Both the position numbers and the translations under genes were made by a program. Source: a virus. Taken from it: a stretch of DNA of 38,688 nt. This document shows, piece after piece, positions 6,038 to 9,162 of the stretch. The stretch is from positions 1 to 38,688 of the IMG/VR virus record IMGVR_UViG_3300028800_002445; one strand, given 5' to 3'. The stretch's first letter is position 1. Each line of letters begins with the position of its first letter. The notes below the pieces were generated by a model. That model was not told where the DNA came from. It worked only from the letters and a program-made list of their open reading frames with translations, and made no database searches.

Positions 6038-6352
6038 TTGGGCCTTAAAAACTTAAAGAATAGTAAAAAGGGGCAAAAATGGGGGAATCAACAGACAATG
6101 AAAGAAAACGTCAGACAATAATAATAGGCTATAAAACAAGGTATTAAATTAGGATTTTGTTGTTTGTGGTTGTCTATGGTTGTATTTGATATTATCATTG
6201 CCGGAGGTTCAAATCCTCTCACCCCGACCATATCAAAATACATCTAAAACCTAATAATACCAACGTTTTATAAATAAATTGTCTAATTGCTTTTATGTAA
6301 TTGGGGCTATTTTGGGCCTATTTGTAGTTTATTTTTTATAGGGTATGGGAAT
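6038..6352. other. attP: attP region (attachment site with possible arm sites)
   Basis: About 315 bases without a convincing gene, directly after int. The core is a tRNA-Pro 3' end at 6202-6230. CAGACAAT repeats occur as direct copies at 6092-6099 and 6112-6119 (20 bp apart). Inverted near-copies lie at 6169-6176 and 6278-6285 (one or two mismatches). They fit integrase arm-type sites flanking a core on both sides. The arm-site assignment is inference from repeat position. Confidence 0.6.
6202..6230 (+). other. tRNA-Pro 3'-end fragment, attachment core
   Basis: Twenty-nine bases identical in layout to the end of a bacterial tRNA-Pro: T-stem GGAGG, loop TTCAAAT, T-stem CCTCT, acceptor strand CACCCCG, discriminator A and CCA. 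No anticodon arm or 5' half lies upstream, so it is not a tRNA gene. Phages that insert at tRNA 3' ends carry exactly such a piece to rebuild the tRNA. Confidence 0.85.
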
Positions 6353-6664
6353 ATGAATATTGAGGCAAAGCAAAAGGAACTTTCAGATTTTTATAAATTT
6401 CTGAAAGAACAGGGTTATACAGATATCCGTATGCTGGATATTAAACGATATGCCGCCATTTTTAGATTTGCTTTTACTCACGCAATTATTGTTGGTCAAA
6501 TTGGAGACCAATGCGGCTATGAGGATCGCTGGTGTTACAGCACGTATGATCAAGCAAAAGCTGCTTTAGATGCATGGAATGGATATGGCGAACCTGATGG
6601 CTGGCATAGACACCCAATTTCCGGTAGGCGCAGAAATAACGGCGATGAGTATATTAATTATTAA
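6353..6664 (+). CDS. Small phage protein of unknown function
   Basis: A 103-aa protein from the ATG at 6353, preceded by a GGGTATGGGA stretch. The frame is open further upstream, but that part lies in the att region and has no ribosome site. The C-terminal third has a recognisable pattern: EDRWCYSTYDQAKAALDAW, then GEPDGWHRHPISGRRR. I recall this pattern from short uncharacterised phage proteins. Its stop ends one base before the tRNA gene at 6666. Function unknown. Confidence 0.65.
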   Translation: MNIEAKQKELSDFYKFLKEQGYTDIRMLDIKRYAAIFRFAFTHAIIVGQIGDQCGYEDRWCYSTYDQAKAALDAWNGYGEPDGWHRHPISGRRRNNGDEYINY

Positions 6665-6665
6665 C

Positions 6666-6744
6666 GGGACCATAGCTCAACGGTTAGAGCAGCGCACTCA
6701 TAATGCGTTGGTTGGTTTGGGTTCAAATCCCCCTGGTCCCACCA
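6666..6744 (+). tRNA. tRNA-Ile2 (anticodon CAT), atypical T-arm
   Basis: A 79-base cloverleaf. The acceptor GGGACCA pairs fully with TGGTCCC, followed by A and an encoded CCA. The D-arm is GCTC/GAGC. The anticodon stem GCGCA/TGCGT carries loop CTCATAA with CAT at 6699-6701. The short D-loop and TTGGTT variable region resemble tRNA-Ile2, whose CAT is modified to read AUA, rather than elongator tRNA-Met. The T-arm reads GG-TTT-GGG, TTCAAAT, CCCCC: three extra T residues interrupt the five-base stem. It abuts the upstream gene with no room for its own promoter, so it is probably cut from a longer transcript. Confidence 0.75.
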
Positions 6745-6892: not shown

Positions 6893-7051
6893 GCTTAGGC
6901 TTAGTAAAGCTAATAAAGAAAAGATGAAAACCCGCCTCATTGGCATTATTCATCTTTTTTTGGAAGCATAAGAGTTATGCTCTAGCATTTCAGCCCTTGA
7001 ATCAATTACCCGCCAAGCCTCTCAACGATGCGCAACTCTGGCGGGTTTTTT
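6893..7051 (+). ncRNA. Candidate small RNA
   Basis: This fills most of the gap 6745-7160, which holds no gene. An extended -10 box (TG at 6878-6879, then TATACT at 6881-6886) predicts a start near 6893. Hairpins follow: AAAGATGAA/TTCATCTTT (6920-6928 with 6949-6957, followed by seven T), AGCATAA-GAG-TTATGCT (6965-6981), and the strong terminator at 7009-7051. No open frame with a ribosome site was found. The first hairpin could itself stop some transcripts. The -35 box is weak (TTTTTG, 6858). Confidence 0.4.
7009..7051 (+). terminator. Rho-independent terminator
   Basis: CCCGCCA at 7009-7015 pairs with TGGCGGG at 7039-7045, followed by six T residues (7046-7051). It insulates the downstream operon from integrase and tRNA transcription. 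The stem arms are identical to the operator arms at 7086-7100. Confidence 0.85.
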
Positions 7052-7076
7052 ATGCCGAAATACTCTAAATCCACGC

Positions 7077-7106
7077 TTGACACTTCCCGCCAATGGCGGG
7101 TATACT
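7077..7106 (+). promoter_or_regulatory. Strong promoter with palindromic operator in its spacer
   Basis: TTGACA at 7077-7082, an 18-bp spacer and TATACT at 7101-7106. The spacer contains CCCGCCAATGGCGGG (7086-7100), a perfect inverted repeat of seven-base arms around one central base. A dimeric DNA-binding protein bound here would occlude polymerase. The HTH protein encoded at 7417 is the obvious candidate. Confidence 0.8.
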
Positions 7107-7160
7107 ATATCCACAATAGCAATTGAGCCAATATATATAAAATGAACAAGGGGATATAAC

Positions 7161-7379
7161 ATGTTAACCATTAATCACAACAATACACAGATTACTTTAA
7201 CACAGGAGGCTTATTTAGCAGGCACAAATGAGCGCCCAATTTGCCAAGCTAATGCGGCAGATGCAGATGGTAATGAGTATCAAGTAAATTGGGCTGTCAA
7301 TAAAGACTATATGGATCAAGGCGGCGAACTTGATAGCGCATGCGACTGGGATAACCCTACTTCCATCATTAAAATTTGA
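7161..7379 (+). CDS. Small acidic protein, candidate anti-defence gene
   Basis: A 72-aa protein, first in the operon from the promoter at 7077, with an AAGGGG ribosome site before its ATG. It has about ten Asp/Glu against very few Lys/Arg, so it should be strongly acidic. The pattern of an N-terminal beta-like segment, TQEAYLAG, then DADGNEYQVNW and a C-terminal CDWDNPTSI looks familiar from uncharacterised proteobacterial small proteins. It is followed by a small HTH gene. First-gene position, acidity and the HTH partner match known anti-CRISPR operons, but no Acr family is recognised. Function is inferred from context only. Confidence 0.7.
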   Translation: MLTINHNNTQITLTQEAYLAGTNERPICQANAADADGNEYQVNWAVNKDYMDQGGELDSACDWDNPTSIIKI

Positions 7380-7393
7380 TGGGGAGAGATCAC

Positions 7394-7435
7394 GTGCAAA
7401 CAACCGCTTATAAAAAATGGCAATTAAAAAATTAA
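7394..7435 (+). CDS. Possible 13-aa leader peptide overlapping the HTH gene start
   Basis: GTG at 7394 has an excellent GGGGAGAG ribosome site (7381-7388), while the HTH ATG at 7417 has none. The short frame runs 13 codons to TAA at 7433-7435, across the HTH start. It may deliver ribosomes to the HTH gene by reinitiation. Low confidence as a functional peptide. Confidence 0.3.
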   Translation: MQTTAYKKWQLKN

Positions 7436-7623
7436 CAACAAACCAAGAACTAAGACAGCTTAAAGAAAAGCACAAGCTAACCAACGCTCAGCTAGCAAAG
7501 GTCTTAGATCGTTCGATTAGCACCGTCGAGCACTGGTTGGCGAACGAAGACAGCGTTAGCTTTAGGAATGCGCCGAAGGATACGATCGAATTACTTAAGT
7601 ATAAACTTACGGAGATTGAATGA
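7417..7623 (+). CDS. Small HTH (XRE-type) regulator, Aca-like candidate
   Basis: A 68-aa DNA-binding protein. Residues 8-45 form the helix-turn-helix: NQELRQLKEKHKLTNAQLAKVL, then a recognition helix around RSISTVEHWL. The C-terminus is a short amphipathic helix. Size and position right after a small acidic gene fit anti-CRISPR-associated autoregulators, which bind inverted repeats inside their own promoter. Such a repeat is present at 7086-7100. The start lacks its own ribosome site and may be coupled to a short upstream frame. It ends at a repeated junction sequence shared by later genes of the operon. Confidence 0.75.
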   Translation: MAIKKLTTNQELRQLKEKHKLTNAQLAKVLDRSISTVEHWLANEDSVSFRNAPKDTIELLKYKLTEIE

Positions 7624-7625
7624 TG
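7597..7625 (+). repeat. Gene-junction repeat, copy 1
   Basis: AT-rich stretch ending ACTTACGGAGATTGAATGATG. It encodes the end of one protein (…KLTEIE), supplies the CGGAG ribosome site and includes the next ATG. Near-identical copies lie at 7889-7917 and 8291-8318. Confidence 0.85.
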
Positions 7626-7886
7626 CCATTATTTATGCGGAAATGCAGTGAAATGTTAAATGAATGTTTAGCCACGACAATTATTGTTAAAAGCATTGAT
7701 GAATTAGAGCAAGTAATCAATGGAGATAAAGATCCTAGTCGAAAGTATACCGATATAAAAATTGAATCACACAAGAATTTAAAAGACTGTTTTGATAAGC
7801 GGATTGGTTGGTACATACATTATGTTAGCGGCTTGTGGGATAAAGAGCGAATAATAATTGGATCTTTAAGCGAGCCGTTCATTTGA
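7620..7886 (+). CDS. Small protein of unknown function
   Basis: An 88-aa protein starting at ATGATG immediately after the junction-repeat ribosome site and overlapping the HTH stop. Content is mixed, with an acidic central segment and an aromatic C-terminal half (GWYIHYVSGLW). No signal peptide or recognised domain. It belongs to the operon from 7077. The sequence after its stop is a second copy of the junction repeat that still reads as …KYKLAEIE, a leftover of a displaced gene end. Confidence 0.6.
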   Translation: MMPLFMRKCSEMLNECLATTIIVKSIDELEQVINGDKDPSRKYTDIKIESHKNLKDCFDKRIGWYIHYVSGLWDKERIIIGSLSEPFI

Positions 7887-7888
7887 AT

Positions 7889-7917
7889 AAATATAAACTT
7901 GCGGAGATTGAATGATG
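7889..7917 (+). repeat. Gene-junction repeat, copy 2
   Basis: Matches copy 1 over about 27 of 29 bases, including the CGGAGATTGAATGATG ribosome-site/start segment. Here the upstream coding part is no longer used, because the preceding gene stops before it. That points to cassette insertion by recombination at the repeat. Confidence 0.85.
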
Positions 7918-8319
7918 ATTGAACTTCAAAACATTTCATTTAAGGAATTCATAGATCAGGCTATAGAAGATATCAGGAAAGAAAACGCCTCTTTTGAAAG
8001 TCATAGAGACGATTTACTACAGCGTTATCCAGATATAAAAACCATTGGCACAATCATTGAATGCAGTAAACGTCTTCCACCTGAAAAGAAATATGTACTT
8101 GGATATTATGGCGATGATAACTGGACAGACGAAGACGACCAAGATCATGTTAACTTTATTGTTGTGAAACTAGTAAGAAGTAAAGTTGAAGATAACAATA
8201 AGCTTCCTTATAAGTGGCATGAATTCGGGCCAGGACAATTTTTTGGACAAGAAATCACGCATTGGATGCCATTACCCGATGCGCCAATTAAAAGTGAACT
8301 TGCGGAGATTGAATCATGA
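7912..8319 (+). CDS. DUF551-like protein
   Basis: A 135-aa protein started at the ATG supplied by the second junction repeat. The C-terminal half carries the DUF551 hallmarks: a CSKRLPPEKKYVLGYY strand region and a terminal HWMPLPDAP motif. DUF551 domains are common in phage accessory proteins but have no known activity. The N-terminal 35 residues form a charged helix. Its last codons are within the third junction repeat (…SELAEIES). Confidence 0.75.
   Translation: MMIELQNISFKEFIDQAIEDIRKENASFESHRDDLLQRYPDIKTIGTIIECSKRLPPEKKYVLGYYGDDNWTDEDDQDHVNFIVVKLVRSKVEDNNKLPYKWHEFGPGQFFGQEITHWMPLPDAPIKSELAEIES
8291..8318 (+). repeat. Gene-junction repeat, copy 3
   Basis: GAACTTGCGGAGATTGAATCATG matches copies 1 and 2 except for a C in place of G before the ATG. 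It encodes the end of the DUF551-like protein and a following ATG (8316) that opens only a 14-codon frame (8316-8360). Confidence 0.8.
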
Positions 8320-8363
8320 AAAAAATTACCACATCGAATCCTAACATGAGAAGAAGATAAATC

Positions 8364-8687
8364 ATGAACATAGAACAGCTCAATCCATTAGCACAAGAAT
8401 TAAATTCATTGGGCCTGCCAGAGAAAATAGAATCTGATATTTTAAAAACAAACGGAAAATTTATAATTGATATTTTAAACGATTATTTAGATCTTCTAGA
8501 AAAAAATGGGTACATAAAACAATTTTTAACTTTTAAAGTTGATAACAAACATCATAAAGACTATGGGCCAAATTTTCACGTTATTTTAAGCACAGAATTT
8601 AATGTGTGTATCTTATATGATAAGGAAGCCATTTATGAATATAAGTCACGCAAAATGCACAATCCACCTATTATAACTAAGCGCTAA
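8364..8687 (+). CDS. Small protein of unknown function
   Basis: A 107-aa, Lys/Asn/Ile-rich cytosolic protein with a GAGAAGAAG ribosome site. The N-terminus (MNIEQLNPLAQEL) resembles that of the next gene (MNLEQLCTSLEL), suggesting a shared start segment or module. No domain recognised. Same strand and operon as its neighbours, with one base between its stop and the next ATG. Confidence 0.6.
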   Translation: MNIEQLNPLAQELNSLGLPEKIESDILKTNGKFIIDILNDYLDLLEKNGYIKQFLTFKVDNKHHKDYGPNFHVILSTEFNVCILYDKEAIYEYKSRKMHNPPIITKR

Positions 8688-8688
8688 T

Positions 8689-9162
8689 ATGAACCTAGAA
8701 CAACTATGCACGTCGCTGGAATTGTCGAAGAAACTGAAAGAATTAGGAATAAAACAGAGAGCAATATTTTGCTGGCAAAAACCAGATGATAATGATTGGT
8801 ATTTAACTCAACGAGATGAAACTGGATGGGAATTCTTAGAACATGCTCCACAATTTAAAGATAAAGTTATTGCAGCATTCACCGCCGGGGAGCTTGGAAT
8901 TGTACTCCCATCAAATATAATTATACCTTCTTGCTACGATATAAATCCAACGGGAGAACTTTTAAGACTCGCAATAAACTTATTCAAAATAAACGATGAG
9001 TTTTGTTCCATGTATGAAATAGGAAAACTTGATTCAAGTAATATAGTAATACCAGATTCAGAAGTTACCCGAGATAATGAAGTCAATAGCAGAGCCAAAT
9101 TACTAGTTTATTTGATAGAAAATAATATTGTAACAATCGAGGACATCAATGCGAAAATATAA
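8689..9162 (+). CDS. Conserved phage protein of unknown function
   Basis: A 157-aa protein with a pattern I recall from many prophage hypotheticals: SLELSKKLKELGIKQ at the start, a Trp-rich middle, AAFTAGELGIVLP around residues 63-75, and a C-terminal AKLLVYLIENNIVT helix. It is probably a small globular cytosolic protein. It ends the rightward accessory operon and converges with the lysis genes 53 bases away. Confidence 0.7.
   Translation: MNLEQLCTSLELSKKLKELGIKQRAIFCWQKPDDNDWYLTQRDETGWEFLEHAPQFKDKVIAAFTAGELGIVLPSNIIIPSCYDINPTGELLRLAINLFKINDEFCSMYEIGKLDSSNIVIPDSEVTRDNEVNSRAKLLVYLIENNIVTIEDINAKI

Follow-up and report, generated by a model that had tools for sequence, protein, structure and literature searches.

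An orphan abiF antitoxin RNA in the accessory region of a temperate phage, a candidate decoy against AbiF with counterparts in unrelated phages

A promoter whose spacer is occupied in 15 of its 18 bases by a perfect palindrome, followed by a gene for a small acidic protein and a gene for a small HTH protein, raises the question of what such a locus does for the phage that carries it. A sequence-only reading of this DNA had proposed an operon of the acr-aca kind at 7077-7623 within a counter-defence locus. The window, by which we mean the whole stretch of DNA analysed, is the 38,688-nt IMG/VR virus record IMGVR_UViG_3300028800_002445. Its integrase and CI-like repressor genes indicate a temperate phage; tail and packaging genes are also present, including a terminase with relatives, and a pattern scan of IMG/VR returned no relatives of the integrase. 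The locus lies in an accessory region between the integrase and lysis genes that comprises an ORF (6287-6664), a tRNA-Met gene, an abiF RNA, the promoter with its palindrome, and six small ORFs (7161-9162) (Table 1). With its tRNA, its RNA motif and its small-gene operon, this region looks like a phage counter-defence (accessory) region. The sequence directly after the integrase gene (GGTTCAAATCCTCTCACCCCGACCA, 6206-6231) resembles a tRNA 3' end, probably that of a tRNA-Pro, and is likely the attP core.

Table 1. Features of the accessory region, with positions in the window
Feature	Position	Strand	Basis or remark
tRNA-Met (CAT), phage-borne	6666..6744	+	ARAGORN; Rfam RF00005, 59 bits
A/T-rich hairpin with T-run that probably terminates tRNA transcription	6916..6961	+	Inverted repeat, fold
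Candidate abiF RNA promoter, weak (TTGGAA-17-TAGCAT)	6960..6988	+	8/12; read from sequence
Orphan motif of the abiF antitoxin RNA; a CCCGCC/GGCGGG stem carries the invariant loop GCCTCTCAACGATGC	7009..7046	+	Rfam RF03085
T6 run; abiF stem doubles as intrinsic terminator, like bacterial abiF loci	7046..7051	+	Sequence
Near-consensus sigma-70 promoter (TTGACA-18-TATACT)	7077..7106	+	11/12 consensus matches
Perfect 15-bp palindrome (CCCGCCA-A-TGGCGGG) in promoter spacer, putative operator	7086..7100		7-bp arms
Acidic protein of 72 aa, predicted to have a small, beta-rich fold	7161..7379	+	ORF; AlphaFold2
HTH protein of 68 aa that may repress the 7077 promoter	7417..7623	+	Weak HTH matches
30-nt repeat, copy 1	7596..7625	+	HTH gene 3' end and next start codon
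88-aa ORF, without family	7620..7886	+	Pfam and PHROGs searched
30-nt repeat, copy 2	7888..7917	+	93%
135-aa ORF with DUF551 domain	7912..8319	+	Pfam PF04448, 2.1e-8
30-nt repeat, copy 3	8289..8318	+	80%
107-aa ORF, no convincing family	8364..8687	+	Pfam and PHROGs searched
157-aa ORF, N-terminus matches phrog_31971 (unknown function)	8689..9162	+	PHROGs

The individual elements that had been called from the letters, namely the promoter, the palindrome in its spacer, the acidic ORF and the HTH ORF, were all borne out. Perfect inverted repeats of the palindrome's size are frequent in the window (23 are listed, some twice). For promoters matching the consensus at 11 or more of 12 positions, the window has a single case of such a repeat within the spacer and 30 dinucleotide shuffles have none, and the operator-like site is therefore taken to be real; with promoters of at least 10 of 12 matches, the arrangement arises 0.03 times per dinucleotide shuffle. 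The small-gene operon is a transcript separate from the abiF RNA, starting near 7113, and the HTH product probably represses the promoter that drives it through the palindrome. The start of the HTH gene has no obvious Shine-Dalgarno sequence of its own. A better one, GGGGAGAG at 7381-7388, precedes an overlapping 13-codon GTG frame (7394-7435) that covers the HTH start and possibly serves as a leader peptide or in translational coupling.

The acidic protein contains 11 D/E against 3 K/R residues, for a net charge of about -8, and is modelled by AlphaFold2 with a mean pLDDT of 90.3. The nearest folds to this model are those of uncharacterised phage proteins (best E 1.6e-3, TM 0.71). Searches of Pfam, NCBIfam and PADLOC gave no match to it, and hence to no known Acr family there, nor was any PHROG significant; no sequence relative turned up in the phage and viral collections searched, including IMG/VR by pattern scan. 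The HTH protein matches general HTH families only (HTH_31 in Pfam, 4.8e-5; phrog_7950 in PHROGs, 1.3e-9) and shares about 45% identity, across 58 aa, with a protein of Acinetobacter phage Alexa that is annotated as putatively DNA-binding. No relatives emerged when IMG/VR and GTDB were scanned by pattern, and solved structures offered no clear one (best E = 0.24) and no Aca chain among the matches. Its AlphaFold model is poor (pLDDT 71), which makes a fold search with it meaningless.

What does the operon then encode? On the acr-aca proposal, the acidic protein would be an anti-CRISPR or another protein inhibitor, and the HTH protein an Aca repressor acting on the palindrome. The likeness to acr-aca operons is evident, as an inverted repeat placed in the promoter far above chance is followed by a small acidic first gene, whose confidently predicted fold resembles uncharacterised phage proteins, and by a small HTH gene in the same operon. 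Against this stand the lack of Acr and Aca family matches in the collections searched, the lack of a conserved neighbour relation, since no close relatives were found, and the results of an IMG/VR scan, in which the operator with its TTGACA was absent from other viral contigs. In addition, the HTH gene has further small genes behind it and therefore does not close a compact acr-aca pair. We regard the proposal as unlikely, ahead of the two other alternatives taken up below: its regulatory architecture stands, and its assignment of the two proteins to Acr and Aca gains no support from the searches. In the genes that follow, one small gene after another has the 30-nt repeat ahead of it or at its end, a pattern that insertion of cassettes downstream of the HTH gene could have left; an IMG/VR scan with the repeat gave no match.

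The more general idea of a counter-defence locus finds its support upstream of the operon, in a motif that had been overlooked. An Rfam scan placed the RNA at 7009-7046 within the abiF antitoxin family at 45.1 bits, against a gathering score of 37 for RF03085, and the RNA ends 30 bp upstream of the 7077 promoter. No Abi_2 toxin gene was found in the record by a PF07751 search, so that the RNA is an orphan and the locus is not an AbiF toxin-antitoxin system. The RNA's arms, CCCGCCA and TGGCGGG, are also the arms of the promoter palindrome 40 nt downstream; the palindrome, CCCGCCAATGGCGGG, is the abiF stem minus its loop, and the window holds 8 copies of the heptamer CCCGCCA where 1.7 are expected. 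The idea that phages generally repeat the abiF arms as a nearby palindrome was rejected, as none of 46 other abiF loci has such a palindrome; only in the window are the 7-mers shared in this way. The candidate promoter of the RNA, whose spacer is spanned by a 17-nt inverted repeat (AGCATAA-GAG-TTATGCT, 6965-6981), is not significant by itself, because sites as good arise about 2.6 times per shuffled window.

Where did the RNA come from? Together with its terminator (7008-7056), it is identical at 45 of 49 positions to the abiF RNA of a gammaproteobacterial locus in which an Abi_2 ORF starts 22 nt after the RNA (PF07751, 6.7e-60). An IMG/VR scan gave no match to the 3' half of this RNA. A T-run follows 68 of 72 bacterial copies versus 28 of 80 phage copies, from which it appears that the attenuator has been lost from most phage copies. 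The window copy retains it, which fits a recent capture from a bacterial locus.

In bacteria, the abiF RNA is commonly found with its toxin. A set of 369 genomes, all of the class to which a gammaproteobacterial contig belongs, contained 25 with RF03085 matches at E <= 0.001, 13 of them above the curated cut-off, and Abi_2 made up 19 of the 30 ORFs downstream of these gammaproteobacterial and related loci. A home-built Abi_2 profile detected the toxin just downstream of 65 of 105 bacterial copies versus 2 of 108 viral copies among the matches listed, in sets that are imperfectly matched, the bacterial one being mostly Bacteroidales found with a 20-nt core and the viral one having been found with a 17-nt core. 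About a third of the bacterial copies likewise had no detectable Abi_2 downstream, and the ORFs downstream of these copies showed no recurrent alternative partner. The abiF RNA query went unmatched in E. coli genomes. Two bacterial loci are of separate interest. In one gammaproteobacterium (L269 1552-3036), the place after the abiF RNA is taken not by Abi_2 but by a type I restriction gene of the HsdR kind, and the HsdR-like domains are also present in one other ORF of the same 30; this is possibly an abiF-guarded restriction locus. In an Ignavibacteriales contig (L185 7436-7725), three abiF cores are spaced 135 nt apart in an array-like arrangement, which is of interest for the transition from AbiF to CRISPR-Cas13.

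Orphan abiF RNAs are widespread in unrelated phages, often in tRNA clusters. Scanning IMG/VR for the 17-nt core returned at least 119 stretches, many of them fragments and partly from non-independent lineages. Abi_2 was present anywhere in the record in only 2 of the 110 phage records with the core among the matches listed (PF07751, whole records); in these two IMG/VR records the gene lies directly downstream of the RNA and the system is complete. The named phage genomes with an abiF RNA contained no Abi_2 (0/11), and 10 of the 11 named loci passed the Rfam cut-off, the exception being that of Arthrobacter phage Mimi. The carriers include the Autographiviridae PZL-Ah8 and T7-Ah (Aeromonas, T7-like) and CRP-143 (Roseobacter), Acj61 of the Straboviridae (Acinetobacter, T4-like), cyanophages including cyanomyoviruses, Mycobacterium phages, Mimi, and Salicola phage CGphi29. 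In the named phages the RNA is mostly unannotated.

The phage copies bear the marks of selection as RNA. We examined covariation in 71 distinct phage copies without Abi_2, for which the search had fixed the core only and left the flanking stem free. Paired bases occupied 83% of stem cells, versus 33-49% with slid partners; double changes in the stem numbered 94 versus 31 in shuffles, a count attained by 0 of 500, and the covariation score was 0.373 versus 0.115, again reached by 0 of 500 shuffles. A CAA segment beyond the searched core is also conserved in many unrelated orphans. Because the stem covaries and this segment is conserved, we conclude that selection acts on the phage copies as RNA. 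The orphan phage RNAs show two marks expected of an RNA mimic of the pseudo-ToxI or Racr kind: the defence RNA stands alone, its effector missing from the viral genome, and covariation indicates selection on its structure.

The position of the RNA in phage genomes is also not random. A tRNA lies within 50 nt of the RNA at 22 of 95 viral loci among the matches listed, versus 3.4 expected at random positions of the same loci, which is six times above chance. For example, the RNA is located within tRNA arrays in S-SZBM1, Mimi, S-CREM1 and MrMagoo, next to a single tRNA in Lolly9, and with tRNAs nearby in Acj61 and Thibault. Two papers report tRNA clusters as counter-defence islands (PMC10264068, PMC11555353). 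The Aeromonas T7-like phages carry the RNA in the gap between the portal and scaffold genes (L243 2478-2538, L251 2479-2537), where it starts about 20 nt after a promoter of the phage-RNA-polymerase type, ACTATAGGGA.

We propose, at a probability of about 0.7, that the orphan abiF RNA of the window is a phage mimic of the antitoxin of AbiF (Abi_2, a HEPN ribonuclease) and acts as a decoy against AbiF. Upon infection, the RNA would be made in excess and would bind the host AbiF, replacing or supplementing the host's own RNA. The toxin would thereby be kept off, and abortive infection would fail. RCd22 of C. difficile, which contains two abiF motifs, neutralises AbiF by direct binding both in cis and in trans (PMC12373285), and residues C32 and U38 of AbiFr inhibit the RNase according to the relevant passage of a review (PMC12737573). 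Counting against the decoy in the window is the weakness of the RNA's own promoter, at 8/12 only, and the reading presumes a putative cognate AbiF in the host of this phage. An old report, as that review passage relays it, has a DNA region of phage sk1 protecting lactococcal phage 712 from AbiF (PMC12737573). Neither sk1 nor 712 has a recognisable abiF RNA, so that the RNA is not the sole route of AbiF resistance and the case of these two phages is not explained here. There are two tRNA matches in sk1 (L249 27505-27717) and one in 712 (L250 29388-29458).

A second alternative is that the RNA serves the phage in a way other than AbiF inhibition, for instance by engaging another RNA-binding protein of host or phage or by protecting the transcripts of tRNA clusters. 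Such a role would suit the strong placement in tRNA clusters and the RtcB RNA ligase gene of MrMagoo, which adjoins the cluster holding the RNA. We consider it improbable, since the parts that are conserved are those of the AbiF antitoxin, the window copy is close to an RNA that lies beside Abi_2, and the tRNA clusters are themselves reported counter-defence islands. Least probable is that the RNA is a relic of a phage-borne system that lost its toxin gene, now decaying or kept merely as a terminator, because the two complete systems in IMG/VR and the terminator and flank TTTTTTATGCC that the window copy shares with known bacterial abiF loci are outweighed by the selection on the RNA in unrelated orphans, its presence in virulent phages of the T7 and T4 types that have no Abi_2, and the scarcity of T-runs after the phage copies, which a terminator role does not explain.

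The decoy reading may reach beyond the window. That the same orphan RNA recurs in so many unrelated phages, often in tRNA clusters, suggests that phages widely use it to switch off AbiF defence. A broader version, to which we give even odds, holds that orphan abiF RNAs are general phage inhibitors of AbiF, that the tRNA clusters of phages serve as counter-defence islands of mixed RNA content, with antitoxin decoys travelling alongside replacement tRNAs, and that the HTH protein of the window may read the arms in both the promoter and the abiF RNA, which would connect these two elements.

Several known systems bear comparison. The window copy shares the RNA family, invariant loop, stem and terminator-like 3' end with the type III-like AbiF/Abi_2 toxin-antitoxin systems (RF03085; RCd22, PbAbiFr), but this phage has no toxin gene, hardly any phage record with the RNA has one, and the window RNA has one abiF motif where RCd22 has two. 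Pseudo-ToxI of phage PhiTE (PMC3475682) is likewise a phage non-coding RNA that mimics the RNA antitoxin of an abortive-infection toxin-antitoxin system. Its target, ToxN, belongs to a different toxin family than the HEPN protein AbiF; it is inactive until its repeats expand, whereas the phage abiF copies already look complete, and the orphan abiF RNAs are spread far wider. The solitary repeat units known as Racr are also solitary viral copies of a host defence RNA, used as decoys; the target of the abiF RNA differs in being AbiF, which is related to the Cas13 ancestor, and the Racr survey found no type VI representative (PMC10651486). The abiF sRNA of cyanophage S-CREM1 is an annotated orphan in a phage tRNA cluster, described in the relevant passages of that paper as a conserved sRNA, with an anti-AbiF role not stated there (PMC9964418). 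Antitoxin RNA mimicry, CRISPR repeat mimicry and one annotated orphan phage abiF RNA were thus already known. In the literature searched, we found no earlier proposal that phage abiF RNAs inhibit AbiF, and a prior mention is possible in the main AbiF-Cas13 Cell paper.

The named carriers, among them Aeromonas phage T7-Ah, Acinetobacter phage Acj61 and several mycobacteriophages, make the decoy idea testable now. AbiF is reported to be the ancestor-like toxin from the Cas13 lineage. Should the orphan RNAs inhibit it, antitoxin mimicry would gain a second example after pseudo-ToxI, and there would be a concrete reason for the presence of non-tRNA RNAs in phage tRNA clusters. Sequence alone would then predict which phages resist which type of AbiF, and one 37-nt motif would account for the escape from AbiF of many phages.
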